A DNA stretch of 64,000 bases from a virus. Both the position numbers and the translations under genes were made by a program. Within the stretch, counting starts at the first letter, position 1, and every line of letters begins with the position of its first letter. Positions 8,525-49,001 of the stretch are shown piece after piece. The notes under the pieces were generated by a model. The model worked only from the letters and a program-made list of their open reading frames with translations, had not been told where the DNA came from and did not search any database. The stretch is taken from positions 1 to 64,000 of IMG/VR virus record IMGVR_UViG_3300021962_000035. One strand, 5' to 3'.

Positions 8525-11014
8525 ATGAGTTTTAATCCAGAGGACAAGTTTCCCAAAGAAGGAACCCCAGTTTATAACGGTAGCGGAGAGCAATACGATC
8601 TCACTGATACCCGGTATAAATATCACGACGGTCTCGATAACACTACGAAGATCAAAGATTCTTCAGTGGACGATCTCTTTGCCACCACTGATGCTGCTGA
8701 AGCTAGAGCCATCCAGATCGGATGCGGGGGATATCACACGGTCGTAATAAAAGGCAATACTTACTACAAGCCTTGCTCAACAGCAGATTACTATGCTACT
8801 AGAATAGAGCAGCTTGATAGTGCCTTAAACTTCACGTACATAGGTAATTACAGGATATTATCATGGGATAACCCATTCCTGTATGTAACTAAGTTTAAGG
8901 GATGGATTATTGATACTGGTGGAAGCAATAATAACGGACCTTCTTTAAATGCTGACGATATAGCTATAGATTTTAGGTATAGCATCGACGGTAAAACATG
9001 GTCACTTTGGACAAACGTCGGAACTGCATTAGGAGGTCTAACCAATGAATTTTCTGACTTATTTGAAATAACACTTGATCCTAATAATAAATTCTATCCT
9101 GAATTTAGATTCACATCAGTCCTAGTTAATGATGATGGTACAATCATATACAACACGGAAGAACCCATAGATCCGAGTATAGTTATCGTTAATTTTGATT
9201 TAGATCTTGAGTATGCTGATACTCCAGAGGTGGTTATCTATAAACCTGCAGCGATATGTTCCAATGAAATTTCAGTCAGACCTATCATATTTAGTGATTG
9301 TAATTTCACATTCAATCCTTATGCAGTAAACAGAGCTCTGAATCTATATCAGGATCTTAGCCAAATGGTTAATAAAGTGTTTGGGTTAGAAGCTAATTAC
9401 TATTCTGTTCAACCACAGGGGAGAGGAAAGGATGTCATATTGAGAGAATATACTTTATTTAATGTTGTTGCGGAGAAATGTATTAAGATTCTTGTTCCTC
9501 AGAACCAGTTCCCTGATAATAAAATAAACTTTGATCCTTTCGGACTGCAATTTGAAAATCCTTTTGAGATCCAGATAGATCGAAGATATTTTGAAAGTAT
9601 ATTTGGTAAAGGCTCTCAGCCCAGGAAAAGAGATATCATATATTTCCCTATTACCAATAGAATATATGAAATAAATTCAACCTATCTTTTCAGAGATTTT
9701 ATGAACGCTCCTGTTTATTTTAAAATAGAGCTTCAAAAATACAGCCCTAGAAGTAACACATACTTCCAAGATCCTGCTTATAAGGAGGAACTTGAAGGTA
9801 TAGCAGTAACAACCCAAGAACTATTTGGCGATGAAGTTAAAGCGGAGGAATTAAAATCATCTAAGCCTCAGCAGTACGCAACTACGATAACCCAAATGTC
9901 TCAGGATCCTATCAGATCTTATGTTTACAAAGACTTGCCTATTATAGAATATGATCTCAACAACAACTGGACTATAGTTCTAAATAACTATTACGATCTA
10001 TCTGAAGCTTTTGCTGACGTGTCAGAATTCCAGTATGATCCTAGTAGATATAAAAATGCAATAAGATATAAAATGCTTCCCGAGCTTAAAACTGGAGGTG
10101 AGCTTGCTTACACTTGCTGGTTTAGTCTAAGAGATTTTTATGACAACAGCAAAATGACGAAGCGCGGATATCCGATATTAAATGCAACCCTAGAAAGCTA
10201 TGATTCAGATTATTTGTTCTTTAGTACATACCCTAATAGACACAGATTAGAAAAATGGCAGTCTTACGCCTCAAATCCTGAAGGATATGTTGCCGTAAAG
10301 GGCGATAAATTACACTCAGGCGGTTATGAAGTTCTTAATGTAATTGATGAATATAGATTTGTTGTTAAAAACAACTCCACTACATTCTCTCAAGGAACTA
10401 TAGTTTGGAAAGTACAAAAAGCCCAAAACAGAAATTTAATAAGCGGTCTTTATCTTGATTCTAACGAGGACATGAAGGGAATAAGAATTGATCTTATTCA
10501 CTCTGGCGTGATTGATGAAAACACCAATCCTTTCTTAGGACAGGGAAGTTTGGTTATAAGATTAAATGACACCATAATAAATTCACCTTTACAATTTACT
10601 CCTGAGTATGGAGATTGGTATGGAGTTGTTGTTAATGTTTCTAATATCTATAAACAAATTGCAGCTAACGTCTGGGCATTAAGCTATGATCCAGTTGATC
10701 CGAACGAGCAGACAAGTAAATTGAATAAGGTTCATGAAGAAGTTAGGATGTTCACTGATCCTATAATATTCTCTGCCCCATCAAACATAAATACAGATAA
10801 GAATAGTCCTTTCTACGGAACAGAAAATAATGCTTATAAAGTATTTACCGGACCAATATATTTAAGTAATATAAGATTATTTAAAAACATGATTGATGTT
10901 GACAATCAATCAACAGTGTTAAACCAGAACATCGTAAGAGATGCTCAATTAGCACATATAATTGATAACGCTAAACCATTGCTGAACATACCTAAGTTCG
11001 CTAGAAATAGATAA
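8525..11014 (+). CDS. Large virion structural protein with LamG-like C-terminal region
   Basis: 829 residues with no signal peptide or membrane segment. The N-terminal 100 residues look like a virion attachment region. The middle (about 100-420) is beta-rich. The last 330 residues carry LamG-like strands (LAYTCWFSLRDF, GDWYGVVVNVSN, GPIYLSNIRLFKN). It is transcribed from its own GATATATA motif and sits just before the terminase genes, where T4 has neck and tail-completion genes. It may be a neck or whisker-type fibre or a baseplate-associated adhesin. No homologue was recognised with confidence. Confidence 0.6.
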   Translation: MSFNPEDKFPKEGTPVYNGSGEQYDLTDTRYKYHDGLDNTTKIKDSSVDDLFATTDAAEARAIQIGCGGYHTVVIKGNTYYKPCSTADYYATRIEQLDSALNFTYIGNYRILSWDNPFLYVTKFKGWIIDTGGSNNNGPSLNADDIAIDFRYSIDGKTWSLWTNVGTALGGLTNEFSDLFEITLDPNNKFYPEFRFTSVLVNDDGTIIYNTEEPIDPSIVIVNFDLDLEYADTPEVVIYKPAAICSNEISVRPIIFSDCNFTFNPYAVNRALNLYQDLSQMVNKVFGLEANYYSVQPQGRGKDVILREYTLFNVVAEKCIKILVPQNQFPDNKINFDPFGLQFENPFEIQIDRRYFESIFGKGSQPRKRDIIYFPITNRIYEINSTYLFRDFMNAPVYFKIELQKYSPRSNTYFQDPAYKEELEGIAVTTQELFGDEVKAEELKSSKPQQYATTITQMSQDPIRSYVYKDLPIIEYDLNNNWTIVLNNYYDLSEAFADVSEFQYDPSRYKNAIRYKMLPELKTGGELAYTCWFSLRDFYDNSKMTKRGYPILNATLESYDSDYLFFSTYPNRHRLEKWQSYASNPEGYVAVKGDKLHSGGYEVLNVIDEYRFVVKNNSTTFSQGTIVWKVQKAQNRNLISGLYLDSNEDMKGIRIDLIHSGVIDENTNPFLGQGSLVIRLNDTIINSPLQFTPEYGDWYGVVVNVSNIYKQIAANVWALSYDPVDPNEQTSKLNKVHEEVRMFTDPIIFSAPSNINTDKNSPFYGTENNAYKVFTGPIYLSNIRLFKNMIDVDNQSTVLNQNIVRDAQLAHIIDNAKPLLNIPKFARNR

Positions 11015-11804: not shown

Positions 11805-13646
11805 ATGTTTTCAGAAGCAGTACAGAAAGAAGATTCACAAACGGAGAGTAGTTATTGGACAACCTCCAGAATAAATGAACTTCTTAGAAGAGTTGATGAG
11901 GAAGGGCTTGACTATAAAAGTGTAGACAACCCATTCCATGACAACAACCCCGAATTAAAAAGGGCAAATATTCTTTGGGAATATACACCGGAGGAAATCC
12001 TAGAAATGCGCAAGTGTGCGGAGGATGTTACTTATTTTGCTAAGTATTGCCAGGTTATGACCGATGAGGGTTTGAACTACATCAAGCTTAGAGATTATCA
12101 GACCTCAGTTCTTAGAGAGTACCAAGCCAACAGATTTAATATATTTTTAGCACCTAGACAGGTTGGTAAATCTATTACCTCTTCGGTAATTCTTGTTTGG
12201 TATCTGTTATTCAATCACGATAAAAATGCGATGATTTTGGCTAACGTGGGCGATACCGCAGAAGAGCTAATGGACAAGATCAAAGCAATCATCAAGGGAC
12301 TTCCGTTCTTCCTTAAACCTGGTATGGTTGTAAATAACGTGATGTCCATGAGGTTTGACAACGGATGTAGAATCTTAGCTAAGACCACAACTAAAACATC
12401 CGGTATCGGTTTTACTATACACTTCTTATACATGGATGAGTTTGCTCACATTAATCCAAACTTTATAGAAGCCTTTTTTAGATCAACTTACCCAACCGTA
12501 TCATCGTCAAAGGTCTCCAGAATCATAATCACTTCCACCCCTAATGGGATGAATAAGTTTTATGAGATATACCAGGGGGCTCTAATGGGAGAGAATAGCT
12601 TCAATCCAATCAGAGTAGATTGGTGGCAGGTTCCCGGAAGAGATGAGGCATGGAAACAAAAAGAGATTGGGAACTTAGGTAGCGAAGAACTTTTTAATCA
12701 GGAATACGGTAACCAGTTTTTAAGCTCTTCTTCCTTGCTTCTCGGGTCAAATGAATTAAAGAAGATCAAAACAAACGAGGTTGAATATGAATGGAAGGAG
12801 ATAGATTGCTTACATTATGAAGAGTCCTTAAATTATGAGAATCTTCTATGGCATCCTAAATTTAACATCGATAATGCAAATTCACCTGGAAAAAAATTCG
12901 TTTTCTCTATTGATATAAGTGCTGGTGTAAAAGGTGATTTCACCGTTGTTAATATCTTCAAAGTTACTCCACTTCCTAAGAAAATGATAGAATCTATACA
13001 GGAATATGAAGACGAATCCGATTTTTTCGGTCTGGTTCAGGTAGGTGTTTTCAGAGATAACGAGATAAAACTTGAGGAACTTGTTAAATTATTAAGGGGA
13101 TTAATAAAAGTTGTTGGCATCGATAGGGTTAAGCTAGCTATAGAAATGAACTTTAAAGGGGAGCTTCTATACGAAAAGTTGATGACGGACGATGACTATT
13201 ATGACGAGATGTTCTTGTTTACTAAGCATTCTGAATCCGCAAGAGTTTTAAAACCTGGCATCAAGTACAACGAAAAGAATAAGATGAAGTATTGCGAACT
13301 TCTCAGAAGTCTTATAAGAGAGGGGAAGATCCTCGTAAATGATAAAAAATGGACCATCCCGGAGCTTTTTACATTCGGACTAAATAACAGGGGAACATAT
13401 TCCAGTCAAACCGGACACGATGACGTGGCTATGACTTTAGTGAACTTACCTGGTCTTTTCGACGGTTATGATTTCAATCAGATGGTAGGTGATGTGTTTG
13501 ACGAGTTAGAAAACGATTACAAGCAACTGATATCTGCAAAACTTGAGGTGGGAATGCCAGGAGAAACTGATGAATTCGGATACGGAAACAAAGGTCCTTC
13601 AACTAAGGATGGCAGAAGCTATGGTGATTTTAATAAATTGCTTTAA
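11805..13646 (+). CDS. Terminase large subunit (gp17-like)
   Basis: 613 residues, matching T4 gp17 (610). The ATPase domain has a Walker A motif APRQVGKS (residues 116-123) and a Walker B motif FLYMDEFAHI (Asp211/Glu212), followed by the coupling motif ITSTPNG. The C-terminal RNase H-like nuclease shows its first acidic residue in FSIDISAG, a second in AIEMNFKG and a third in TGHDDVAM. The enzyme cuts concatemeric phage DNA and pumps it into the prohead through the portal. Partners encoded here are the candidate small terminase and the two portal proteins. Confidence 0.95.
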   Translation: MFSEAVQKEDSQTESSYWTTSRINELLRRVDEEGLDYKSVDNPFHDNNPELKRANILWEYTPEEILEMRKCAEDVTYFAKYCQVMTDEGLNYIKLRDYQTSVLREYQANRFNIFLAPRQVGKSITSSVILVWYLLFNHDKNAMILANVGDTAEELMDKIKAIIKGLPFFLKPGMVVNNVMSMRFDNGCRILAKTTTKTSGIGFTIHFLYMDEFAHINPNFIEAFFRSTYPTVSSSKVSRIIITSTPNGMNKFYEIYQGALMGENSFNPIRVDWWQVPGRDEAWKQKEIGNLGSEELFNQEYGNQFLSSSSLLLGSNELKKIKTNEVEYEWKEIDCLHYEESLNYENLLWHPKFNIDNANSPGKKFVFSIDISAGVKGDFTVVNIFKVTPLPKKMIESIQEYEDESDFFGLVQVGVFRDNEIKLEELVKLLRGLIKVVGIDRVKLAIEMNFKGELLYEKLMTDDDYYDEMFLFTKHSESARVLKPGIKYNEKNKMKYCELLRSLIREGKILVNDKKWTIPELFTFGLNNRGTYSSQTGHDDVAMTLVNLPGLFDGYDFNQMVGDVFDELENDYKQLISAKLEVGMPGETDEFGYGNKGPSTKDGRSYGDFNKLL

Positions 13647-13719: not shown

Positions 13720-16700
13720 ATGGCAAATAAGGTTAAAATAGACTATTCCCAGTTTAAAGCCTCAGGGGTTTATACCCTTGAATTTGACGCGTCACAAAGT
13801 GTCATACTAACATCTCAAACGATTAGATTGGTTGTTGGCTTCTCTAACAAGGGGCCTTTCAATACTCCGGTTTATATACCAGATCCAACGACAATGATTT
13901 CTGTTTTTGGAGACATTGATAGATCCTTAGAAAATAAAGGATCTTTCTTCCATAGATCGATACTAACGTGTCTAAACACTGGTCCTGTTTTCGCATTGAA
14001 TCTATTAAAACTTAATGATGATGTTGATAGCGCTAGTCCGGACGAAGTTACGTATAGAGCTTACTCTTTGGACACTGAACAATATAATGGTGTTGTAACT
14101 TCTGAGTTATACTCATCTTATTATAACAAAGAGAGATTCTGGTTTGCAGATCCTAATTATTTCCTAGCTACTCTAAGCACATCGGATACAGGAAAACTTT
14201 TCAGCTTAACCAACTTAGGTAAATCCCCTATGAGTGTTATCATTAGAAAATCTACAGATTCTTCTAAGCCATTAAAGGGATATGATATCTTTGCTATAGA
14301 CTGGTATGGTGCTAATAATGTGCCTACGTTCATGCACCCTTACGACTATATGTCTGATTATTTCATCGACGTTATAGCAGTTTCTGGAGATTGGACAGAT
14401 TATCAAGCATTAGCTTTAGATCCTAAATGGTCAGCGTTCTTTACCAATAACGGATTCATTAAGAGCAAAATTGATGCTTTCCTTAGCGATCAGGACGTAA
14501 ACATCGTTACATCAGTAACTGGATGTATTATCCCTGACTTCGTGGATCTTAACGGGGTTAATCAATACATTCAGACTTTAGTAAATGCTAACTCTCCAGC
14601 GACAGGATTATTCTGTGCTATAGATGAACAAGCATTCGACGACATCTGTGCTAATCCATATACAATCGATTTAGTGGGTAACCACCTTATTGACGAATTA
14701 ACTGGAGATAGAGATTTAGCTAATCCTAGGATTAATTTCTTAAGCTACGACCAGGCTTTAGTTGCAGATTACCTTTATACACAAAACGTGGTTGGGGTTA
14801 CCGGTTCAGGAGCAACTGCATTTATCGGACCTACTGGTTTAAGCGGTCCAGCAAACGGTACTAAAGTAGGTACACTATTTACCCTTGATGCTGGTACAAC
14901 TGCAGGTGTTGTTTACCAATCATTTGCAGCATACGATCCTAATGCTTATGACGGAGGGTTACACTATCTTCAGACTTTAGGAACAGGAGGAACAGCAGGA
15001 TATTTCCAAAATGCTTCTCAAAAGAACGCATTAAAATCTTTCTTGACTGTTAATTCTTCGGACGATCAGAAATTTATAGTTGGTGTTGTTAATGGTATAT
15101 CCGGTGCTACTGGAGCTTTAATCAACCAATTTGCATTGCATGATCTGATTAAACTTAAAGTTACCGGAACACAGGATGTTGGAGGTGAGCTTAGAATATT
15201 CTTTACTCACCCTCTAGATACTTCTTTCTACAGATCACAAGGTATTACTGTATCCCCTGTTTATACAATCAATTCATATAATACGGGTGCTTCTGGAAGT
15301 AATAAGCCTTTCTATAGCAACGCTTACCAATTCGGTAACTCTGATTATTTGGATATCGTTAGTGAAGTTACCCCTAACGGTGTAACTGGACCTAACGCAC
15401 CTCTTGGAGTTTCCAACGTACTACAAGGATATAATGCTTCTACGTTATTCCAAAATGTTAAATACAATGAGTTGGCAGACGGAGATCAAATTTGGTTAAA
15501 CTCAGCAGGAACAAGTCTTCAGTACTTGTCATTTGAATCTACCGTAGATAGGGATCAATTTAACTATGTTAACACAAGATCTCACTCTAACGTATCACTT
15601 GCAGGGAACACAATAAATAACATAACTGGATTTGCTACTGCTTATGCTTCGGATAACATCGGAACACCAGTAACTTCACAGAAAATAGACATAGTTTCTC
15701 AGGAAGGTTCAATTAACTCATTTGTTAACTGTACGAAGATTGATACCACTTCATTCTACGTAGTTGAGGATTCAAACGGAAACGTTCCTCTATCCGTTGG
15801 AGATTTGGTAGTTTGTACAGACCTTGACATCTGCGTTCCTACCACAGGAAATCAACAAAGCAGATTAGCTAAGATTACTTCAGTTGCTTCTACAACAACT
15901 TCAGGAACTTACAAAGCTATCTGTTCTAGACCGGTACTTTACTATTCTGGTGATGGATCAGGATCAAGAGTTCAGAAGTTTAAATCAATCTCTCAGTTCA
16001 CTAGATCTTTTGATTTCACATACCTTTCTGGATTCACCATGAAAGAATCTCATAGACCTAACGGATCTGATGCTAGAGTCTCTGAAATACTTGATGTTAT
16101 GTACGACACTAACATCGCTAAGACATTAGCTTCTAAAGACGTTATTTCTTTCAGATACATTGTAGATACATTCTCTGGACAAATTTTACCTAACTCTAAA
16201 TACCAGTTAAGTAGATTAGCAATGCTTAGACAGCAATCACTTGCGCTTATAAACGCTCCATCGATGGCTCAATTCCAAGCTAGCACCGATCCTAGATTTA
16301 CTAATGCGCCTACAGCTTCTAATCCTTACCCAAGTTTAAATACTGCTTATATCGCAGACGGAGGTAACTTATCATTAAATCCTTCTTACACATTTAGCTT
16401 ACCTAGTGAAGCAGAAGGTGCTAAATTCGCTGCATTCTATGCTCCTTATATCACTATCAGAGAGTCTAATAGAAACGTGAACGTTCCACCAGCTGCTATG
16501 GTATCTAATAACTTTGTTAGAAAATTCGCTACAGGAGAACCTTATGCAATCATCGCAGGTCAGAAAAGAGGAATCTTAAGCGGAGGTGGTAACATCGTAG
16601 GAGTAGAATACGACTTCACTGACGAGGACAGAGCAAACTTAGAACCATTCGGAATTAATCCTATCATTAAGAGAAGAGGAGTTGGAGTGGTAATCTTCGG

Positions 16701-17073
16701 TAACCAAACAGCTTACCAACAAGTTAACTCTGCATTCAACTTAGTTCACGTAAGAGACTTGTTAATAAGTATCGAAAGCGACGTACAGTCTATCCTTTCA
16801 AACTACTTATTTGATTTCAATGATGATTCTATCAGACTTGAAATTAAGACATTGGTTGATAACTACTTGGACGGAGTAAGAGCAGGTGGTGGAATCTACA
16901 ACTACCAAACTGTTATGGATGCTTCTAATAATACACCAGCAATTATCGATATGAACATGGGAGTTATAGATGTTATTATCGAACCTGCTAGAGGTATTCA
17001 GAAATTCATTAACAGAATTACTGTTACAAGAACAGGAGGTATTGCAGCAGGAGGCTTTATCCAATTCGTATAA
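13720..17073 (+). CDS. Tail sheath protein (gp18-like), enlarged
   Basis: 1117 residues, against 659 in T4. The N-terminus has the sheath opening (VYTLEFDASQSV, then VVGFSNKGPFNTPVYI, then LLKLND). The C-terminal 220 residues carry the conserved core fold: YAIIAGQKRGIL, then NPIIKRRGVGVVIFGNQTAY, then VHVRDLLISIES, and the closing strand IQKFINRITVTR. The centre (roughly residues 270-730) is an insertion rich in Gly, Ser and Thr and probably forms surface domains on the sheath. The sheath contracts to drive the tube through the envelope. It is followed directly by the tube genes, as in T4. Confidence 0.93.
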   Translation: MANKVKIDYSQFKASGVYTLEFDASQSVILTSQTIRLVVGFSNKGPFNTPVYIPDPTTMISVFGDIDRSLENKGSFFHRSILTCLNTGPVFALNLLKLNDDVDSASPDEVTYRAYSLDTEQYNGVVTSELYSSYYNKERFWFADPNYFLATLSTSDTGKLFSLTNLGKSPMSVIIRKSTDSSKPLKGYDIFAIDWYGANNVPTFMHPYDYMSDYFIDVIAVSGDWTDYQALALDPKWSAFFTNNGFIKSKIDAFLSDQDVNIVTSVTGCIIPDFVDLNGVNQYIQTLVNANSPATGLFCAIDEQAFDDICANPYTIDLVGNHLIDELTGDRDLANPRINFLSYDQALVADYLYTQNVVGVTGSGATAFIGPTGLSGPANGTKVGTLFTLDAGTTAGVVYQSFAAYDPNAYDGGLHYLQTLGTGGTAGYFQNASQKNALKSFLTVNSSDDQKFIVGVVNGISGATGALINQFALHDLIKLKVTGTQDVGGELRIFFTHPLDTSFYRSQGITVSPVYTINSYNTGASGSNKPFYSNAYQFGNSDYLDIVSEVTPNGVTGPNAPLGVSNVLQGYNASTLFQNVKYNELADGDQIWLNSAGTSLQYLSFESTVDRDQFNYVNTRSHSNVSLAGNTINNITGFATAYASDNIGTPVTSQKIDIVSQEGSINSFVNCTKIDTTSFYVVEDSNGNVPLSVGDLVVCTDLDICVPTTGNQQSRLAKITSVASTTTSGTYKAICSRPVLYYSGDGSGSRVQKFKSISQFTRSFDFTYLSGFTMKESHRPNGSDARVSEILDVMYDTNIAKTLASKDVISFRYIVDTFSGQILPNSKYQLSRLAMLRQQSLALINAPSMAQFQASTDPRFTNAPTASNPYPSLNTAYIADGGNLSLNPSYTFSLPSEAEGAKFAAFYAPYITIRESNRNVNVPPAAMVSNNFVRKFATGEPYAIIAGQKRGILSGGGNIVGVEYDFTDEDRANLEPFGINPIIKRRGVGVVIFGNQTAYQQVNSAFNLVHVRDLLISIESDVQSILSNYLFDFNDDSIRLEIKTLVDNYLDGVRAGGGIYNYQTVMDASNNTPAIIDMNMGVIDVIIEPARGIQKFINRITVTRTGGIAAGGFIQFV

Positions 17074-17119: not shown

Positions 17120-17674
17120 ATGGCAGGATTATCACATTATCAAAATTCATTATCAGCAATAAACAAGTTCGAACCTGTTTACCTGAATCAGTTCGAGGTT
17201 ACCGTTATACCTCCTTCTGCTGTTGCTGGCGGAGAGATCCTACTACAACACGTTACGAAGGTTGGTGGACTTACATTAGACAAAAACCCAGGATTGGTTA
17301 CCCAAAAATATAAGTTTGCTAAAAGGAACTATGCTGGAGCTAAGCCCGATAACACTTATATGGATTTAAGTTTAAGCTTTACCGTCAACTTAAATGATGA
17401 TAACTCAATGTATGTTTTTAAAACATTGAGACAATGGAGTGACTTAATCTACAATCCTTTAACAGGTGCGATGGGACTTAAGAATGATTATACTGGTACT
17501 ATCGTGGTTTCGATTTTTAATAAACAAGGGGACGTTTTCAGAAGAATAACATGCAGAGATTGTTATCCAACTAAAGCCATAAATGAAATGAATCTTAACT
17601 ACACATCAACTGATATATTCAAGATTGATGATATGACATGGGCAGTTGATTACTGGGAGGATTTATTCTTATAA
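17120..17674 (+). CDS. Tail tube protein, copy 1 (gp19-like)
   Basis: 184 residues, against 163 in T4 gp19. Diagnostic tube-family features include LSLSFTVNLNDDNSMYVF, LRQWSDLIYNPLTGAMG and the terminal DYWEDLF. The protein polymerises into hexameric rings that form the inner tail tube, guided by the tape measure and surrounded by the sheath. A paralogue follows 17 bases downstream and shares the same blocks. Confidence 0.9.
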   Translation: MAGLSHYQNSLSAINKFEPVYLNQFEVTVIPPSAVAGGEILLQHVTKVGGLTLDKNPGLVTQKYKFAKRNYAGAKPDNTYMDLSLSFTVNLNDDNSMYVFKTLRQWSDLIYNPLTGAMGLKNDYTGTIVVSIFNKQGDVFRRITCRDCYPTKAINEMNLNYTSTDIFKIDDMTWAVDYWEDLFL

Positions 17675-17691
17675 AAAAACACAAAAAATAA

Positions 17692-18267
17692 ATGGCAGGT
17701 TTACCACATTTTACAAACTCTAAAGCCGCGATAAACAACTACGAACCGGTTTATCTTAACCAATTCGAGGTTTTGATCAACCCACCTTCGGGTATAGTAG
17801 ATGCTAGCACGACTTTCAAAGGAGAGTCTATTTTAACTCAACAGGTTAAGTCCATTGCTGGATTAACTGTAGACATCTTAGCAAACGGAAACGTTGAACA
17901 AATGTACAAATTTGCTCAAAGAAGATACGCTGCAGGCGAGCCTACAACAACCGATATGACTTTAACTATGGAATTTGAAGTCAACCTAAATGATGCTAAC
18001 TCTATGAGTGTTTATAAGATACTTAGACAATGGAGCGATTTAATCTATAACCCCTTAACTGGAGCAATGGGTATTAAGAGTGATTATGTTGGGTCTATGG
18101 TTATTTCGGTTTTCAGCAAAAGAGGGGATGTTTTCAGAAGAATCAGAATTCCTTCTTGCTTTTTGAGCACAGCTATTAACGATATGCAGTTGGATTACGA
18201 GAATCCTGCTATCTACACAGTATCAGCTTCTTGGATCTGTGATTACTGGGAAGATTTATTCATCTAA
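17692..18267 (+). CDS. Tail tube protein, copy 2 (gp19-like)
   Basis: 191 residues and a paralogue of the preceding gene: both open with MAGL(S/P)H, share VYLNQFEV, the LRQWSDLIYNPLTGAMG block and end in DYWEDLF(L/I). This copy has a small insertion after residue 35 and a different peptide around residues 60-75. One copy may build the shaft and the other the baseplate-proximal or terminal rings, or the two may alternate. A strong terminator follows. Confidence 0.9.
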   Translation: MAGLPHFTNSKAAINNYEPVYLNQFEVLINPPSGIVDASTTFKGESILTQQVKSIAGLTVDILANGNVEQMYKFAQRRYAAGEPTTTDMTLTMEFEVNLNDANSMSVYKILRQWSDLIYNPLTGAMGIKSDYVGSMVISVFSKRGDVFRRIRIPSCFLSTAINDMQLDYENPAIYTVSASWICDYWEDLFI

Positions 18268-29922: not shown

Positions 29923-30408
29923 ATGACGGATATAAAAAAAGTAAAACCTAATGGGGATTACAAATCCGGAAAATTTGAACCCTCTAACCCAGATAAGTAT
30001 ATTGGAGATATCCACAACATAATATACAGATCTTCCTGGGAATATCGATTCTGTGTTTATTGCGATACTAATGAATCCATAATGAAATGGAGTTCTGAAC
30101 CTATAGCTATCAAGTACATCAATCCTCTGGACAAAAAGGAACATGATTACAATGTAGATTTTTATATAAAAGTTCTAAAAGAGTCTGGCGAAGAACAACA
30201 GTGGATAATAGAGATCAAGCCGGAGAGGCAGACTCAAAAGCCCATTTATGAGGGTACTATGACCCTTGCTAAGCTAAAATCATATAATCACAACATGCAG
30301 GTTTGGATAACGAACCAAGCAAAATTCAAAGCAGCTAAAGAATGGGCTGGGAAAAGAGGATTTAGATTCGGTGTGGTCGATGAAAAATTCCTATTTAAAA
30401 GTAAATGA
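29923..30408 (+). CDS. Head completion nuclease (gp4-like)
   Basis: 161 residues (T4 gp4: 150). Hallmarks: IYRSSWEYRFCVYCD, then MKWSSEPIAIKYINP, then HDYNVDFYI, then QWIIEIKP, giving the E...D...E-x-K order of a TnsA/PD-(D/E)XK-type fold. In T4, gp4 acts after packaging to finish the head so that a tail can join. It is followed by an overlapping gene and then the portal genes. Confidence 0.9.
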   Translation: MTDIKKVKPNGDYKSGKFEPSNPDKYIGDIHNIIYRSSWEYRFCVYCDTNESIMKWSSEPIAIKYINPLDKKEHDYNVDFYIKVLKESGEEQQWIIEIKPERQTQKPIYEGTMTLAKLKSYNHNMQVWITNQAKFKAAKEWAGKRGFRFGVVDEKFLFKSK

Positions 30409-31010
30409 AATATTCAGAATCTGTATTACAATACAAGAAAGAATTCAACAGTATTGCAGAGCTAGTAAAGAATACTGATGATGTGTTTTCCGAGAAATAT
30501 TTCTCCGGAGGAAATTCGGAGAAGAGTTTTTCCCCTCCTTTTATACCCGGAGAAATATATGCCTTTCCCTATCCCACTGACAGCGAGTTGTCAGATAAGA
30601 GAAAGTTTATAGACAGAAATCCTATAGTATTATGCACAGATTCTTACCCGACACCGGAAAATGGTGTGATATTAAGAGGTATCGATCTTGTCGTAACACC
30701 TCCGGAGTATAGAATGAAAATAGTGGGAAAGGTTTATGATAACTTTTCTTCCATGATAGAAAAAAATCAGAATTACTATACAAAAGGTGGAGCTATATCT
30801 CCCTTGCCTTTAACTAATATCAATCTTAAGAATATGCTTGCTAATACCGGATATGAGTTTTCTCTGTTTGGATTCAAGACAAGGTTCATCAGAGAAATAC
30901 ATGTTTTGGACTTAGAAGACTGGTATAAATTACCTTATCTGAGAAGGGGCGATGTAGAGGGCTTAGATCTGCAGGGGATATATAAGGAATACCAATCGAA
31001 ATTAATTTAA
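30405..31010 (+). CDS. Virion/assembly protein of unknown function between gp4 and portal
   Basis: 201 residues, overlapping the gp4-like gene by 4 bases (ATGA). A beta-barrel-like stretch FIPGEIYAFPYPT, then DRNPIVLCTDSY, then ILRGIDLVVTPPEYR, vaguely recalls SH3-like/MazF-type barrels; the C-terminus is helical with LEDWYKLPYLRRGD. In T4, gene 53 (baseplate wedge, 196 residues) follows gene 4, but the sequence does not show gp53 features, and a better gp53-like candidate lies at 63436. Likely head or neck completion; no firm family. Confidence 0.6.
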   Translation: MKYSESVLQYKKEFNSIAELVKNTDDVFSEKYFSGGNSEKSFSPPFIPGEIYAFPYPTDSELSDKRKFIDRNPIVLCTDSYPTPENGVILRGIDLVVTPPEYRMKIVGKVYDNFSSMIEKNQNYYTKGGAISPLPLTNINLKNMLANTGYEFSLFGFKTRFIREIHVLDLEDWYKLPYLRRGDVEGLDLQGIYKEYQSKLI

Positions 31011-31042: not shown

Positions 31043-32656
31043 ATGGCCGGTTTTGTAGACAATAATGATCCATCTCAATCCCCTGTTATACAGAGGATCA
31101 GGGAATCAGTGAGGAAACTGAGTACTTTTGGTATGAAGTATGATGACATGGTCATCAGAAATTCACAAGCTGTTGGTGTTACTGAGGCTGCTTTTTTAAA
31201 TAAGAACAAAGCTAATGTAGAGGACGAAAGCATGCTTTGGACCTTAGCAAAGCAGGATATCACAACAAAGCAGTTCATTTCATATTTCGATAAAGACTAT
31301 AAGGGCAAAAGGGATTATCTAAGAAAATTCTCGCTTAATCCCGAGATAGAATGGGTTCTAGATACGATATGTGACGAAGCCATTTCTTACGATCCCGCTA
31401 ATTTCTTTGCATACCCGGATTTCATAGATCTTTCAGACATAAATGAAAAGCTAAAAGAGGATCTTTATGAGAATTATAAAAAGCTTTATGACATCTGGGG
31501 ATTTACCGACGACATTACTGGATGGCAGTACTTTAGACAATTTTTAGTTGACGGATTTTTATGCTTTGAGATAATCTACGATAACGAGGGTAAATATATC
31601 ATAGGATTTAAAGAATTGGATCCTGTTACTATAATACCGAGTGTAGAGAAACAGGTAGACGGAACTTTTGTTAATACCTGGACCCAATTCCCACAAGACC
31701 CGAAAAGGAGAAGAATACTTTACGATCCGCAGATAATCTATATTTCTTATGCTAAAGGAAATGCAATCTCTAGGGTAAGTTATATCGAGAGGCTAATTAG
31801 ACCGTATAACATTCTGAGAATTATAGAATACACTAGAGTTATCTGGTCTGTTATGAATTCATCTTTTAGATTAAAGATGACAGTTCCTATCGGTACTAAA
31901 TCACCTCAAAAGGGTATGCAAACCTTGGGTGAACTTATGAGTATCTATAAGGAGGATGTCCAGCTTAATGATGAGAGCGGGGAATTACTAATTGACGGTA
32001 AACCTAAGATCCAGTTTTATAAAAACTATCTTATGCCCTCTGGTGTTAATGGTACGCCTACCATAGAACCTGTTACCACTGAGGGACCTAATCTAAATGA
32101 TCCTGCACCTTTGTCTTACTTCTTTGATAAGTTCGTGCAAGAATCTAAAGTTCCGCCTTCAAGGTTTCACACTCCAGACGGTGGAAACACTTCTCCATAT
32201 TCAAACGGAGCGGAAGGATTAGATAAGGAAGAAATAAGATTTGCTAAGTTTGTAGAAAGACTTAGATCAATTTTCCAGGAGATATTAACAAAGCCACTTT
32301 GGATTCAAATGGCTAAAAAATATCCTAACCTGGAGAAGGACTTCTTATTTAAGAGCCAATTGGGACTAGATTATTTCTCTGATAATCCATTTAAGATCAA
32401 TCAGGAGATGGATATTATTAATAAAAGGAAAGAATCCGTTACTGCTATGACAGGATTACTCGGAGACGAAGAGAAGCCATATTTCTCTACCGCTTTCCTT
32501 ATTGAGACTTTCCTTGGTATGTCCAGACAGGATATAATAGCAAATAAGGAAGCCATGGAGAGAAAAGCTAAGGAGAAGGAAAAAGCAGAGAAGAAAGAAG
32601 GCGGGGAAGAAGGCGGGGAAGAAAAAGAAGGGGAAGCACCAGAAGTAACACTATAA
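31043..32656 (+). CDS. Portal protein, copy 1 (gp20-like)
   Basis: 537 residues (T4 gp20: 524). Portal-family blocks include FSLNPEIEWVLDTICDEAI, QYFRQFLVDGFLCFEII, FKELDPVTI, YISYAKGNAISRVSYIERL, SPQKGMQTLGELM and ERLRSIFQEILTKPLW. It would form the dodecameric vertex through which DNA enters. The C-terminus is a Lys/Glu/Gly-rich tail ending GEAPEVTL. A complete second portal gene follows 9 bases downstream. Confidence 0.93.
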   Translation: MAGFVDNNDPSQSPVIQRIRESVRKLSTFGMKYDDMVIRNSQAVGVTEAAFLNKNKANVEDESMLWTLAKQDITTKQFISYFDKDYKGKRDYLRKFSLNPEIEWVLDTICDEAISYDPANFFAYPDFIDLSDINEKLKEDLYENYKKLYDIWGFTDDITGWQYFRQFLVDGFLCFEIIYDNEGKYIIGFKELDPVTIIPSVEKQVDGTFVNTWTQFPQDPKRRRILYDPQIIYISYAKGNAISRVSYIERLIRPYNILRIIEYTRVIWSVMNSSFRLKMTVPIGTKSPQKGMQTLGELMSIYKEDVQLNDESGELLIDGKPKIQFYKNYLMPSGVNGTPTIEPVTTEGPNLNDPAPLSYFFDKFVQESKVPPSRFHTPDGGNTSPYSNGAEGLDKEEIRFAKFVERLRSIFQEILTKPLWIQMAKKYPNLEKDFLFKSQLGLDYFSDNPFKINQEMDIINKRKESVTAMTGLLGDEEKPYFSTAFLIETFLGMSRQDIIANKEAMERKAKEKEKAEKKEGGEEGGEEKEGEAPEVTL

Positions 32657-32665
32657 AAATAAGAG

Positions 32666-34291
32666 ATGGCAGGATTTTTAGATTTTTTAAGACCTAACGA
32701 GTCAGCTTTAGGTAACATACTGAGAAGCCTTGGTAAAGTATCCAAGTTCGGTATGCAGTATGATGACATGGTCGTTAGAAATTCTCAGGCCGTAGGTAAA
32801 ACAGAAAGTTATTTCTTTAATCAGCAAGGAACTGGATTTACCCAGGATGACGCTTTTTACTGGACAGCTTCTTACCAGGATACCAAGGTAAGAAAATACA
32901 TCGCATACTTCGATAAGGACTATGTAGAAAAAAGAAACTTCTTAAGAAAATTTTCACTAAATGGAGAAATTGAATTTATTATTGATACGATTACAGACGA
33001 ATCTATCACTTATGACGATAGAAATTATTTTGCTAATCCTTCTTTCCTTAATTTAGATCTAAAGGAGAAGGTATTAAATAAGATATCTCTACATTATAAT
33101 AGGCTGTACAATATATTTGGGTTCCAAAATTCCGTACTTGCTTGGCAGTATTTCAAACAATTTTTAATTGACGGATTTCTCGCATTTGAGATTATCTATG
33201 ACAACAAAGGAAAAGAGATAATCGGATTTAAAGAGCTTGATCCATCTTCTCTACAACCCGCTGTTGAAAAGATAGGGGAAAATGAATACCAACAATTTTG
33301 GATTCAGTATCCAAAAAATCCTCAAATGACTAGGAAACTAACAAATGAGCAAATCATTTATATTTCTTATGCTAAGGGTAATAGCGTATCTAGGGTTAGC
33401 TATATAGAAAGACTCGTTAGATCCTACAACATTCTAAGAATCATGGAGAATTCCAGAATCATCTGGAATGTTATGAATGCTTCTTATAGATTGAAGTTTA
33501 TTATTCCTACTGGTAGCCAATCTCCTCAAAAAGCTATGCAGACTTTAGGCCAGCTAATGTCTAACTACAAGGAGGATATTACCATTAATGACGCTTCAGG
33601 TGAATTAACGGTAAATGGAAGACCTAAGGTTCAGTTTTATAAAAACTATCTATTTCCTGAACAGAATGGTCAATCACCTCAGATAGAATCATTAAATCCT
33701 AATGGTCCGGATTTTAATGTTATGGATAATGTTCTTTATTTCTATAACAAGTTAAAAATGGATTCCAAAATACCTTATGCTAGATTTGCTTCAAGGGCTG
33801 CTGGTCCTGTTAATTATCAGATAGGTATAGATCAGTTGGAAAGAGACGAGATAAGGTTTGAGAAATTCCTAAGAAGATTAAGATCTATTTTCCAGGAGAT
33901 ACTTGTCAAGCCCCTTTATATTCAAATGTGCTTAGATTTTCCTGAGTTGTCAAGAGATAGAAGCTTTAAAGCAAATCTGGGATTGGATTTTCACAGAGAA
34001 AGTGAGTTTGAAGAAATGGTTCAACTTACCAACTTTACTAAGAGAAGCGAATTCATAAAAGGCTTAGGCGAGCTTAAAGTTAAGGTCGGAGAGGAAGAGA
34101 AAGCATACTTTGATAATGATTATCTTATACAAAGATTCCTTGGGTTAACTCCGGATCAAATAGCTACAAACGAAAGCTATTTGAAAAAAGAAGCAAAAGC
34201 TGCTCCTAAGAAAGAGGAAGGCGGAGCTGAAGGCGAGGCCGCTCCAGCGGAGGGCGAGGGCGAAGGAGAAGCTCCGGAGGTAACTCTATAA
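32666..34291 (+). CDS. Portal protein, copy 2 (gp20-like paralogue)
   Basis: 541 residues and clearly paralogous to the preceding protein across its whole length: YDDMVVRNSQAVG, YISYAKGNSVSRVSYIERL, SYNILRIMENSRIIWNVMN, SPQKAMQTLGQLM, LRRLRSIFQEILVKPLY, and the same terminal GEAPEVTL. Divergence is spread over the length and no frame is broken, so both look functional. The C-terminal residues before the tail differ (Ala/Glu/Gly-rich here). The two could form mixed portal rings or be used at different assembly stages. Confidence 0.92.
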   Translation: MAGFLDFLRPNESALGNILRSLGKVSKFGMQYDDMVVRNSQAVGKTESYFFNQQGTGFTQDDAFYWTASYQDTKVRKYIAYFDKDYVEKRNFLRKFSLNGEIEFIIDTITDESITYDDRNYFANPSFLNLDLKEKVLNKISLHYNRLYNIFGFQNSVLAWQYFKQFLIDGFLAFEIIYDNKGKEIIGFKELDPSSLQPAVEKIGENEYQQFWIQYPKNPQMTRKLTNEQIIYISYAKGNSVSRVSYIERLVRSYNILRIMENSRIIWNVMNASYRLKFIIPTGSQSPQKAMQTLGQLMSNYKEDITINDASGELTVNGRPKVQFYKNYLFPEQNGQSPQIESLNPNGPDFNVMDNVLYFYNKLKMDSKIPYARFASRAAGPVNYQIGIDQLERDEIRFEKFLRRLRSIFQEILVKPLYIQMCLDFPELSRDRSFKANLGLDFHRESEFEEMVQLTNFTKRSEFIKGLGELKVKVGEEEKAYFDNDYLIQRFLGLTPDQIATNESYLKKEAKAAPKKEEGGAEGEAAPAEGEGEGEAPEVTL

Positions 34292-34485: not shown

Positions 34486-35832
34486 ATGGTATTCGATGAA
34501 ATGGTAAACAACATCAAGATTCTTAAAGTTTTAGAATCTTTGACCGGCGAGGGATCGCAAAAAGCAAAGCAATCATTAATCAAGACGTCGATCAATCCTA
34601 AAATGGAGTACATTCTCGACACTTGTTTTAACCCCTTTGTTACTACAAAGCTTCACAAGCTAAATTTCCCAGAAAAATCTAATTCAGAAAATCCCAATTT
34701 ATGGGAAGATTTCAAAGATCTGGTTGAGGATCTGAAGAAAGCACCTGCTGCAAATGATTCCCTTAGATCTAGGGCAGAGGTCCTACTCGGAGCTAGGTTA
34801 TCTGAGAACGAGTCAGAGGACACTGAATTGAGAAAAAACCTAATGAAAATCCTTACCAAAAGGATGAACATAGGGATTGGTGCAAAATTAATTAACAAAG
34901 CAGTAGGCAGGGAATTGATTCCTGATCCTTCTCTTATGTTGGCTACTGACGATCATAAAGTGATCGAAAAGTGGGACAAGATCTACTGTGAGGAAAAATA
35001 CGATGGCGTACGTGTAATAGCTATCTACAAGAATGGTGAAATCACATACTTTACTCGTGCATTCAACGAACTTGATGCTACTTGCTTTCCGAAGATAACT
35101 TTCGATTTAAAACTCTGCATGATAAACTCTGGACTATCAGGTAACTGGTTTTTCGATGGAGAATTAACCGATTTGAACAGAAAATCCGTTAGCGGTAAAG
35201 TAACACAAATTCTTAAAGGTACGGCAAGCGATAAAATCGAAAGCGGATTTCTTTTTAATGTTTTCGATTTTGATGAACTCATTACTCTAGATAAGGGAAG
35301 CGGGGTTCTAGAATATGTTGATCGTAGAGATACGTTAGAAAAAATCACTAGCGGATTATCGGAGGATTCTCCGGTGAAGCTTGCTCAAATGTGGGAATTG
35401 TCAGATCCTTCTGAAATCACTGCCATCTATAAAAAAATAGTAGATATTGGCGGCGAAGGAGTTATCTGCAAGGATAACGGAGTTTATGAATGCAAGAGAT
35501 CTAAATCTTGGGTTAAATTCAAGGAAGTTAACGAGTGCGATCTTGAAATAACTGGATGGTATCCAGGAGAGGGAAAAAGAGAGGGTCTTATCGGAGGATT
35601 TATTTGCACAGACCTTTCAAAAACACTTAATGTTAAGATTGGATCTGGTTTCAATGATAACGATCTTAAGGAACTTAGTAAAGATCCGGATTCACACATC
35701 GGAAAGATTGCAGCAATACAATACAACGTAACGATCACGGATAAACACGAGAACAGATCTTTATTCTTGCCTCGATTTGTCGAGGTTCGTCACGATAAAA
35801 ATTCTGCTGATGATCTTTCTAGTAAATTTTAA
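34486..35832 (+). CDS. ATP-dependent DNA ligase (gp30-like)
   Basis: 448 residues (T4 gp30: 487). The adenylation motif is KYDGVR with Lys171. Further nucleotidyltransferase motifs follow: WFFDGELT (motif III), FLFNVFDFDE, GGEGVICKD (motif IV) and WVKFKE (motif V), then an OB-fold with GWYPGEGKREGLIGGF. The N-terminal 130 residues form the helical DNA-binding domain. It seals nicks during replication and recombination. It heads the DNA-metabolism block and has a host-type promoter. Confidence 0.95.
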   Translation: MVFDEMVNNIKILKVLESLTGEGSQKAKQSLIKTSINPKMEYILDTCFNPFVTTKLHKLNFPEKSNSENPNLWEDFKDLVEDLKKAPAANDSLRSRAEVLLGARLSENESEDTELRKNLMKILTKRMNIGIGAKLINKAVGRELIPDPSLMLATDDHKVIEKWDKIYCEEKYDGVRVIAIYKNGEITYFTRAFNELDATCFPKITFDLKLCMINSGLSGNWFFDGELTDLNRKSVSGKVTQILKGTASDKIESGFLFNVFDFDELITLDKGSGVLEYVDRRDTLEKITSGLSEDSPVKLAQMWELSDPSEITAIYKKIVDIGGEGVICKDNGVYECKRSKSWVKFKEVNECDLEITGWYPGEGKREGLIGGFICTDLSKTLNVKIGSGFNDNDLKELSKDPDSHIGKIAAIQYNVTITDKHENRSLFLPRFVEVRHDKNSADDLSSKF

Positions 35833-35865
35833 GAAACAACTTCTTTTTTTAACTCTAGAAATAAT

Positions 35866-36810: not shown

Positions 36811-36811
36811 T

Positions 36812-45289: not shown

Positions 45290-47251
45290 ATGCCACAACT
45301 ACAATCATTAAACGAAAATATGGTATTCATCCTTGAGAGACAGAATTCCATACTAGAAGCGAAAAAGTCAGAATCTGACGATTACGTTCTAGAAGGTATT
45401 GCTGCTGTTTTCGGACAAGAGAACAACAACAATAGAATATACGAGGAGAAGGAATATTTACCGCACCTTGAATATTTGAAGGATAAGATCTCACAGAATA
45501 GACTGGTTGGTGAATTAGATCACCCAGAGAAATTCGATGTGTCTCTTAAGAACATCTCTCACATCATAACAGATCTTAACTACGATAAAGGTAACAGAGA
45601 GCTTAAGATTAAGGTTAAACTTTTAGATACCCCAGCGGGTAGAATAGCTAAGAACTTAGTTGATGCTGGAGTTCCTCTTTCTATTTCTTCAAGAGCAGCT
45701 GGTTCAGTAGGTAATGATAAAAAGGTGGCAATTAAGAAAATTTTTACTTACGATCTAGTAGCTGATCCTGGATTTAAGGACGCACAACTTGAAAGAGTGT
45801 ATGAAAGCCAAGGGTTTACATCTCAAGAATTCGAAGCAATGAAAAATAATAGCATATTAAATAGCTTAGAATGCTTAAATGAATCTTTAGGTATCGAAAA
45901 AGAATCTTCACTTAAGATATATAAAGTTGAAAATAACGAAGAATTCAACAAAATCGTGAATAAATCAGATAATAAAAATAAATCAGTCCTTATGGAGAAC
46001 AATGAATTTGTTACTGCGGAGGAGCTTAATCAGTATTCAGTCTTCTTGAAAAAAGAGATGGATTCGATGAAAGCCGCTATCGCAGAGGCTAAAAATCAAA
46101 AAGCATCGCTAACTGAATCTGAAGATTTAAGTAAAGCTAATGAAGCTCTTGAAGAAAGAGTTGCTAAGCTTGAAAAATATTCAGAGTATTTAGCTGAGAA
46201 TCTAGAAAATTCTATTAAATACGGTGAGTATTTAGCAGAAAACTTGGACAGCACTATCAACTACAGTAAATATTTAGCAGAAAACTTAGACAAGAATATT
46301 TCTTATTCTAAGTACTTAGCTGAAAACGTAGATAAGTCTATCTCTTATTCCGAGTATGTTGCTGAAAGCGTTGACAAGAACATCGAGTACTCTAAATACT
46401 TAGCAGAAAAATTGGATCAAAATATTCAATACTCAGAGTACTTAGCAGAAAACGTAGATAAAGGAATCGCTTATTCTGAATATCTTGGAGAAAACTTAGA
46501 TAAAGGAATCGCTTATACTGAATACGTTGCTGAAAAACTAAACAACGGAATCGAATACACTGAATACGTTGCTGAGAATTTAAACAAGGGCATCGAGTAC
46601 TCTGACTATCTTGCAGAGAACTTAAATAAAGGATTAGACTATTCTGAGTATCTTGCAGAGAAATTAAACAGAGGAATTGCTTATAGCGAATACATCGCTG
46701 AGTCAGTTTCTACTAAAATTCCATCTAATGGTACTGGAGTATTAAAAGAGAGTGTAAATCTATCTGCAGAAGCAGGTCTTAATGAATCTGGCTTTGCTGG
46801 AAACTATGATAACCTAACTTCACAGATTGATTCATTAATAGAATCGGTTAAGACACAAAAAACCGCTTCAAACATCAACGAAGCTGCTAAAGCAGTAAAC
46901 CCAGCCGAAACACAGAAGGCTAACGAAACAGCTCTTAACGAGTCAGAGAACACAACTAAAACAGGTCTTAAGTTTATTGACGAAATGCCAGCAGAATATG
47001 CTCCGGTATGGGAATCTTTATCAGAAGGACACCAAGCATCTATTGTTGCTCAGTCACACTTCTATAATTTAGATACCCCTTATCAGATCAAAAATTTCTG
47101 GTCAACTCGTCAGCTTGGAGCTAAACCAGTTGGAGTACAAAAACTTGACGAGAGTGAAAATGTAGCCGAGACTGCAAAAACACAAGCATATTCTTCAGAT
47201 TACATGAATTATATCGCTTCTGCACTTGAGCAAAAATTTCAAAAAAGATAA
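45290..47251 (+). CDS. Prohead protease-scaffold fusion (gp21-like + gp22-like)
   Basis: 653 residues. Residues about 25-185 form a gp21-type prohead protease: VGELDHPEKF (catalytic His78), LKIKVKLLDTPAGRIAKNL (cited in part) and SISSRAAGS (catalytic Ser133 or 134). T4 gp21 is 212 residues and separate from the scaffold gp22; here a long helical region follows in the same frame. It includes thirteen 14-residue repeats of the form YSEYLAENLDKxIx (residues about 297-478), then LNES/VNPAE-type sites and an acidic end. Several (L)-N-E sites suggest self-processing. An internal ATG at 45992 could start a scaffold-only product. Confidence 0.85.
   Translation: MPQLQSLNENMVFILERQNSILEAKKSESDDYVLEGIAAVFGQENNNNRIYEEKEYLPHLEYLKDKISQNRLVGELDHPEKFDVSLKNISHIITDLNYDKGNRELKIKVKLLDTPAGRIAKNLVDAGVPLSISSRAAGSVGNDKKVAIKKIFTYDLVADPGFKDAQLERVYESQGFTSQEFEAMKNNSILNSLECLNESLGIEKESSLKIYKVENNEEFNKIVNKSDNKNKSVLMENNEFVTAEELNQYSVFLKKEMDSMKAAIAEAKNQKASLTESEDLSKANEALEERVAKLEKYSEYLAENLENSIKYGEYLAENLDSTINYSKYLAENLDKNISYSKYLAENVDKSISYSEYVAESVDKNIEYSKYLAEKLDQNIQYSEYLAENVDKGIAYSEYLGENLDKGIAYTEYVAEKLNNGIEYTEYVAENLNKGIEYSDYLAENLNKGLDYSEYLAEKLNRGIAYSEYIAESVSTKIPSNGTGVLKESVNLSAEAGLNESGFAGNYDNLTSQIDSLIESVKTQKTASNINEAAKAVNPAETQKANETALNESENTTKTGLKFIDEMPAEYAPVWESLSEGHQASIVAQSHFYNLDTPYQIKNFWSTRQLGAKPVGVQKLDESENVAETAKTQAYSSDYMNYIASALEQKFQKR
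46178..46723 (+). repeat. Thirteen 42-base repeats encoding YSEYLAEN-type helices
   Basis: Each unit encodes 14 residues beginning Y-(S/T/G)-(E/K/D)-Y-(L/V/I)-(A/G)-E and ending with Asp/Asn-Lys-x-Ile. The length is exactly 13 x 42 bases. Codons vary between units, so protein-level selection keeps the repeat. Confidence 0.92.
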
Positions 47252-47276: not shown

Positions 47277-49001
47277 ATGAAATTGATTAACGAACAAGAA
47301 ATCTATGAAACTTGGTCACCTCTTATCGAGAGCAAGGCTGGTATCACAGATGAAAGCAAAAAAGGTTGGTTGACTAAATATTGTCATTACCATTCATTAA
47401 ACGAGTCTGCTGGTGCATACAACTCATTAGGCGTTGTAAACGGTATGGGTACTGTAGCTCCTCCAGCATTCCCAGGCGCATCATTCGGTGGTGGCGCTGC
47501 TCTATCAACTGGCGCTAACGCTGGTTTCTACAACAACAGCTGGCAAGGTTCAGGAGATAAATTCCCTTCATTACTTCCATTAGCTATTCAGGTAGCTGCG
47601 AAGACTGTAGGTTTTGATATCGTTCCTGTTATCCCTATGTCAGGTCCAACTGGTATCTTATCTTACTTAGATTACGTATACGCAGGTGGTAAAGTTGCTG
47701 CTGCTGCTGCTTCTTCAGCTGCTGATCAGTTAGCTACTGCTCCTTCATTAATTAAATTCCCAGTTTACCAATCAGCAACTGGAACAGGTGTTACTGGTGC
47801 TACTGCTGGTACATTCACTGTAGGTGCTACTGCTTCTGTTGGTACTACTTTACTTTTAACTTTCGTAGGTCTATCAAGAATTGATGGTTACCCTATCTTC
47901 CAAGTTACTGGTTTAGCTTCAGGTTCTAACGTTGCTTCTTACATCAACGGTACTCCTGCACAAGTAGTTACTTCAGCAGGTGGTTCTGGTTTCTACACTG
48001 GAGCATCTTCAGTTAACTACGCTGCACAGCTAGTTAAAGCTTTAGAAGATCACATCCAAGGTTTCTCTGGTGCTGGTTTCAACAACGACCAAGCTTGGCA
48101 AGGTCCTTACGTTGATGGTACTAAAACTTACAACCCAATGTTAAGAGGTGTTGCTGAGTCTACTTACTACAACTCAATGGGTCTTTCAACTTTCACTAAA
48201 TTCGTAGAAGCTGAAACTTTCCAAGTTGCTGCATCAGTTACAACTGAGCAAATCCAAGACCTTAACAAACAATTCGGTATCGACGTTATTTCAATGATCG
48301 AGAACGCATTGGTTAACGAGGTTTCTCAAGCAATCAACAAGCACATCCTTTCAAGAACATTTGCTTTAGGTTGGTCTAACCACACTCAGTTCCTTAACAC
48401 TGAAAACCAAAACCTTAACTTGAACTTGATCATCGGTGGTGGTGCTGGTACTACAGCCGCTTACGTTAAGAAAGACGACACTACTCAAGCTATGACAATC
48501 CCTGCAGGTCCTGCATCAGGAGGTTATGAGAACTTATCAACTTTACAAAGAAGATTATTCTCAAGAATCCTTGCAGCTGCTAACGTGGTAGCTAACAGAG
48601 GTAGAAGAGGTCCTGCTAACTTCATCGTTACAAACGCTGCAGTTGCAAGTGCACTTCAAGATATCTCTCAGTTCACTTTCGCACCGTTCTCTAACACTTT
48701 AACTCAAAACAACGGTACTTTATACCCTGTAGGTTCGCTTGCTGGTATGACTGTATATGTTGATCAAAACATGAGCTACAATGATACAAGAGTTTGTATC
48801 GGTAGAAAAGGTGGAGACGACGAACCAGGTATCAAATTTATGCCTTACATGATGGCTGAATCTATTCAGACTATCTCTGAAGGTACAATGTCACCTAAAA
48901 TCGCAGTTAAATCAAGATACGCTCTAGTAGAAGCTGGTTTCTTACCAGAAACTATGTACTTGACATTCTATGTTAACGTACCTGCTGGTGGTTTAGCTTA
49001 A
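47277..49001 (+). CDS. Major capsid protein (gp23-like)
   Basis: 574 residues (T4 gp23: 521). HK97-fold, gp23-like features include FPSLLPLAIQVAAKTVGFDI, VIPMSGPTGILSYLDYVYA (cited in part), the EAETFQVAASVTTEQIQDL segment, and the C-terminal PEIMYLTFYVN-like closing strand (LPETMYLTFYVN). The N-terminal leader contains two protease-type sites, LINE (residue 6) and SLNE (residue 43); cutting after Glu43 would match T4 maturation. Codon choice is strongly biased to GCT, GGT, ACT and C-ending AAC/TAC/TTC, fitting very high expression. A strong terminator follows. Confidence 0.95.
   Translation: MKLINEQEIYETWSPLIESKAGITDESKKGWLTKYCHYHSLNESAGAYNSLGVVNGMGTVAPPAFPGASFGGGAALSTGANAGFYNNSWQGSGDKFPSLLPLAIQVAAKTVGFDIVPVIPMSGPTGILSYLDYVYAGGKVAAAAASSAADQLATAPSLIKFPVYQSATGTGVTGATAGTFTVGATASVGTTLLLTFVGLSRIDGYPIFQVTGLASGSNVASYINGTPAQVVTSAGGSGFYTGASSVNYAAQLVKALEDHIQGFSGAGFNNDQAWQGPYVDGTKTYNPMLRGVAESTYYNSMGLSTFTKFVEAETFQVAASVTTEQIQDLNKQFGIDVISMIENALVNEVSQAINKHILSRTFALGWSNHTQFLNTENQNLNLNLIIGGGAGTTAAYVKKDDTTQAMTIPAGPASGGYENLSTLQRRLFSRILAAANVVANRGRRGPANFIVTNAAVASALQDISQFTFAPFSNTLTQNNGTLYPVGSLAGMTVYVDQNMSYNDTRVCIGRKGGDDEPGIKFMPYMMAESIQTISEGTMSPKIAVKSRYALVEAGFLPETMYLTFYVNVPAGGLA

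Follow-up and report, generated by a model that had tools for sequence, protein, structure and literature searches.

In tailed phages and herpesviruses alike, the portal is regarded as a homododecamer, and why its symmetry is mismatched with the five-fold capsid and with the terminase motor has long been a puzzle. In T4, a capsid protein and its paralog, gp23 and gp24, coexist in one head; however, these paralogs occupy different lattice positions and do not form one ring at the packaging vertex. Among the T4 proteins of the connector, which was solved with C6 symmetry, the adaptor gp13 is a dodecamer and gp14 a hexamer (PMC12270204). In the tail tubes of T5 and P74-26, duplicated domains give rise to three-fold pseudo-hexamers (PMC5717097, PMC10034513). 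In the literature that we searched, which lay outside most subscription journals, we found no paired, heteromeric, or second portal.

Here, we present an analysis of two tandem portal genes in the first 64 kb (the window) of a 121,823-base virus record. Coordinates are those of the window unless another record is named, and all window features described below lie on the plus strand. Portal gene A (31043..32656; 537 codons) and portal gene B (32666..34291; 541 codons) have no internal stop codon and are separated by a 9-nt spacer (32657..32665), with B in the same frame as A. The two proteins align over 509 residues with 50% identity and 71% similarity (519 bits, E = 0), have the blocks YISYAKGN, SYIERL, and LRSIFQEIL in common, and both terminate in GEAPEVTL. 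The first-pass annotation had described two adjacent full-length portal frames of 537 and 541 residues, and its coordinates, motifs, and GEAPEVTL ends were all confirmed. Both proteins match the Pfam Portal_T4 family (PF07230; cut-off 22.9 bits), A with 200 bits over positions 7-432 and B with 226 bits over positions 6-433 of the 433-position profile, and both match the PHROG portal profile phrog_213. When A was modeled with AlphaFold (mean pLDDT 66, with a poorly modeled clip), chains of T4 gp20 were the best matches in the PDB (E 2.5e-18). The portal fold with wing, stem, clip, and crown was thus recovered for A by the model and for B by sequence, placing both in the family of T4 gp20 (PDB 3JA7, 6UZC, 9LU6) by HMM and, for A, also by fold. 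When A and B were joined as the single chain that their common frame would allow to be read, AlphaFold gave a pLDDT of 48.5 and a pTM of 0.34, scores too low to describe an A-B interface. On these matches, A and B are T4-type portal proteins encoded by intact genes. The difference from T4 lies in number: T4 has one gp20 gene and a homododecamer, whereas here two paralogs that are 50% apart always occur together.

The surroundings of the pair resemble those of gp20 in that the head-gene neighbors are similar (end protector, head closure, protease/scaffold, and gp23). Upstream of A are a late sigma factor, a head closure protein with a gp4-type nuclease fold (29923..30408; phrog_218, PF08722), and, directly adjacent, a gp2-type DNA end protector (30405..31010; weak match to phrog_429); the same order of end protector and portal is present in PTm1 and MA9V-2. 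About 11 kb downstream of the portals lie single-copy genes for a prohead protease that includes a repetitive scaffold-like region (45290..47251; PF03420, phrog_207) and the major capsid protein gp23 (47277..49001; PF07068, 134.6 bits). The protease carries a long run of near-identical, YSEYLAENLDKGIA-like repeats, and this fused stretch is probably a coiled scaffold core. In the interval from the portals to the capsid gene, a reading of the sequence alone suggests genes for a putative DNA ligase and for clamp-loader-like ATPase, nucleotide-kinase-like, and 5'-nuclease-like proteins (34486-38477). The tail module is upstream of the portals and comprises, in order, the neck or head closure protein Hc2 with a T4 neck-protein domain (8525..11014; phrog_679, PF11649), the large terminase (11805..13646; phrog_5989, phrog_2), the tail sheath (13720..17073; phrog_34521 with 414 bits, PF17482), and two tandem tail tube genes; the first three are single copy. 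At 1117 aa, the sheath protein is unusually large.

A search for homologous pairs in related genomes, as proposed in the first-pass annotation, extended the observation further than the window could show, to a large clade. Using A, B, and a divergent A as queries against viral contigs, we found relatives in two subclades. Altogether, A is followed by B in tandem in nearly 300 relative loci, all of them in huge phages that are uncultured; apparent exceptions were all at contig edges. Every contig with enough sequence had A and then B on the same strand, and lone matches were at contig edges or belonged outside the group. Full-length pairs numbered 196, of which 118 were distinct at the DNA level, and the spacer varied from 1 to 23 nt with 9 nt commonest. 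A further search from clade 2 recovered both portals in 72 of 80 loci; the other eight loci begin within B or just upstream of B. The 50% divergence together with the recurrence in many independent metagenomes rules out an assembly artefact or a recent duplication. Because two-portal contigs reach 434 kb, we conclude that the pair defines a clade of huge phages. Searches of bacterial and archaeal genomes found no relatives. Hosts of the nearest named relatives are Prevotella, Sphingomonas, Tenacibaculum, and Chryseobacterium, which makes it likely that the host range of the two-portal phages is mainly within Bacteroidota.

That one gp20 is the normal state, as the first-pass annotation held, is borne out by a survey of 50,697 phage records. 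A has matches in 1,825 of these, at 1,827 places in total, and a second place was present only in LR756501 and LR756503, each with a listed length of 735,411 bp. In LR756501, the extra match is a partial portal-like frame at 142317-142826 of that 735-kb record (an open frame of 342 aa that is 41% identical within residues 74-265 of the query), and weaker portal-like fragments are also present in LR756500 and LR756502. A search with the portal of the single-portal phage LR756502 recovered 80 contigs, each of which had one portal and no more; in 49 of these, the portal is flanked on both sides by 2 kb or more. The Lak phages together with LR756500, LR756501, LR756502, and LR756504 are the nearest outside relatives that we found in both the portal and the tube trees; these single-portal huge phages differ from the pair clade in having one portal and one tube each, the extra copy in LR756501 being only the partial fragment.

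In a maximum-likelihood tree of portals (IQ-TREE on a reduced set), A proteins of the two subclades group together (support 100), as do B proteins (92), and the pair clade as a whole has a support of 100. The Lak phages, LR756500, LR756501, LR756502, and LR756504, all with single portals, fall outside it, and the FastTree topology is in agreement. Because the A clade and the B clade each span both subclades, the data point to a single portal duplication; this topology is explained by a tandem duplication later than the divergence from the nearest single-portal phages that we found. Independent duplications in each subclade are not favored, as A and B are each a clade.

Both copies have been kept since. 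The median dN/dS of A is 0.021 and that of B 0.018 in the 29 usable pairs, beyond which synonymous sites saturate, and across 4000 random pairs, the dN values of the two portals have a correlation of 0.98. A and B are thus under strong purifying selection at matched rates, and both have persisted throughout the history of the clade. The first-pass annotation had called both genes complete and had named stop codons or a neutral substitution ratio in one copy across relatives as part of the grounds for abandoning its reading of the pair. Instead, the 118 distinct pairs with a dN/dS of ~0.02 for each copy argue that both genes are maintained and not decaying, and this ratio rules out that either is a pseudogene. 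Only two disrupted portals were present among all loci examined, an in-frame stop codon in copy A of L217 (6601-6603) and a frameshift in copy B of L177 (~8309), and both are possibly assembly errors. If the copies were interchangeable and mixed at random, the duplication would have been retained for output only; the tandem layout and the shared tail agree with this idea. However, divergence of ~50%, paralog-specific conserved residues, and the lack of loss in any lineage speak against it, and ~12 portal subunits suffice for a virion, making pressure on dosage unlikely; we regard retention for output as improbable.

In an all-against-all comparison of the proteins of the window, the portals were accompanied by one other full-length pair, the tail tube proteins T1 (17120..17674; 184 aa) and T2 (17692..18267; 191 aa), which are 55% identical. 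Both match phrog_45 and phrog_3629 (E 5e-6 to 4e-9), while their strongest profile match is phrog_32623, for which a function is not assigned. The tube pair (17120-18267) adjoins the sheath gene (13720-17073), which lies directly upstream, as tube genes of contractile tails do. In the entire 122-kb record, the portals and the tubes are the sole close full-length paralogs. The next tandem pair in that record (99905-103196, beyond the window) is 27% identical and had no Pfam match. In a 373-kb relative, in which the portal pair is intact, the tubes are the only close tandem pair seen, a repeat region aside.

The tube pair follows the portal pair. Two tandem tubes were found in the window and in all 22 of the two-portal relatives for which the context in the record is complete; in an additional two-portal record, which is not among the 22, the tube region is cut by the contig start (G038). 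Exactly one tube was found in 23 single-portal records, and in two others (G001 and G035) we found no tube. The records are not all independent, G006, G007, and G008 being near-identical. In the tube tree, T1 of both subclades group together (support 97), as do T2 (94), with supports of 97, 94, and 96 for the relevant nodes, and the single tubes fall outside T1/T2. Taken together, the portal and tube trees place both duplications on the same stem branch, each gene having duplicated once. Both tube copies are constrained, with dN/dS of 0.07 and 0.08. The tubes of T5 (pb6) and P74-26 likewise have two tube units per building block in a three-fold pseudo-hexamer and serve as our working model for T1 and T2; however, those units are fused in one chain and belong to siphophages, whereas T1 and T2 are separate genes beside a contractile sheath.

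Based on these observations, we propose that the ancestor of this T4-related huge-phage clade underwent one tandem duplication of the portal gene, and a duplication of the tube gene on the same branch, after which A and B would both have become part of a single portal vertex, in a hetero-oligomeric ring for which each is obligatory. In the simplest arrangement, A and B would alternate round the twelve positions (A6B6), lowering the symmetry from twelve-fold to six-fold (C6) and matching it to the neck gates and the tail, which are six-fold. In the same way, T1 and T2 would share the tube, in the simplest form as (T1T2)3 pseudo-hexamers. In keeping with an obligate ring, both paralogs are constrained, and both are kept in every complete locus. 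We infer that A and B co-assemble in one hetero-oligomeric ring with about an even chance of being right. The broader proposal that the entire DNA conduit is built of alternating paralogs, a six-fold A6B6 portal and a three-fold (T1T2)3 tube, is more tentative, and we put it somewhat below even. We know of no heteromeric portal, and an A6B6 ring would be the first. If the proposal is true, this lineage would have lowered the symmetry of its packaging vertex through gene duplication. Two portal subunits kept since one old duplication, with the tube duplicated on the same branch, amount to a natural experiment on whether the symmetry of the ring matters, and the clade supplies defined A and B sequences for a direct study of ring formation.

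Alternatively, the paralogs could form two homomeric portal populations, with an all-A or an all-B ring in each virion and hence two kinds of particles, and each protein does resemble a complete portal. The presence of the tube duplication in the same phages favors co-assembly over two separate portal populations, even though the portal and tube duplications are one event each on one branch, such that the coincidence counts as n = 1. Moreover, the terminase, capsid, sheath, and protease, and also the neck protein, are single in the window, and no other close paralogs are present in the record; with the first four of these single, two separate types of virions look unlikely. Nor do two populations readily explain the paired tube or why neither copy has been lost at any of nearly 300 loci. 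Altogether, we consider this alternative improbable.

How A and B differ also bears on whether they occupy one ring. Mapping alignment columns onto the T4 gp20 domains of PMC4493910, we found 18 columns in subclade 1 at which A and B each have a fixed residue but not the same one. Of these columns, nine are in the stem helices and channel loop, the region lining the DNA channel, which accounts for 49 of the 515 columns (hypergeometric 8e-6, and Fisher p = 0.0013 when conservation is equal; both values are descriptive, the domain grouping having been picked after the counts were seen). Separate subunits would allow neighboring positions to specialize, for instance at the channel constriction formed by the stem and channel loop. 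Across the whole clade, only eight sites are fixed differently, suggesting that the specialization of A and B is subtle. Of 100 positions at which five near single portals do not vary, 65 are kept in A and 75 in B; because these numbers are about equal, neither copy has lost the portal plan. This slight inequality is nevertheless what could be expected from a division of labor without co-assembly, in which one paralog would form the mature portal ring and the other would have a related but separate job, e.g., in prohead nucleation, at another stage, or as a minor or transient ring, with one tube paralog forming a special first or last ring. In contractile injection systems, Afp1/Afp5 illustrate such a use of one tube paralog as a special first or last ring. 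The higher score of B than of A against T4 gp20 (83 vs 46 bits) points in the same direction. In contrast, the full-length portal architecture and the same rate and constraint in both copies argue against separate jobs, and the behavior of the C-terminal tails, which change in parallel and are kept by one copy or the other in different lineages, is a poor fit to fixed roles. We therefore view a division of labor as unlikely.

The C-terminal tails of A (32630..32653) and B (34265..34288) are identical at the protein level in the window, but five of the eight GEAPEVTL codons differ, all synonymously. This argues that the shared tail of the window is not a recent DNA copy and excludes recent gene conversion as its sole cause. 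Across the clade, the tail is a short acidic stretch with hydrophobic-x-Leu at the end. A and B tails are more alike within a genome than between genomes (110 vs a shuffle mean of 78 and a maximum of 93 in 5000 shuffles, a comparison that leaves phylogeny in and includes only genomes with the tail on both copies). Examples of such parallel tails are PPQVTL in L040 and L041 and PAVTI in L045 and L048. In a set of 53, the tail was kept only on B in 20 cases, only on A in 10, and on neither in two. Some of the similarity could reflect local gene conversion, as the tail codons of A and B are identical at seven of seven positions in L045 and at six of seven in both L017 and L018. In T4 gp20, the last eight residues are disordered and located at the crown (PMC4493910). 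The first-pass annotation had suggested that the shared tail contacts the same partner, and the parallel change within genomes makes the tails look linked in this way; together with the retention of the tail by one copy or the other in different lineages, it is suggestive of a shared partner that either subunit can serve. Such a partner would be served more easily if A and B are in one ring. In the co-assembly model, the two tails would meet a common partner on the inside of the crown, which may be the scaffold core.

The two-portal clade may overlap with the published huge phages of freshwater Bacteroidetes that encode ribosomal protein S21 (bS21) (PMC9723584). The abstract of that paper uses the plural "portal vertex proteins," and the parts of the text available to us do not mention paralogous portals or tubes. 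As a general marker of the clade, bS21 was rejected, with a gene in one of 20 records searched, single-portal ones included. That gene, at 40696-40851 on the minus strand of a 348-kb record with two portals (G005), links the two-portal clade to the published bS21 phages.
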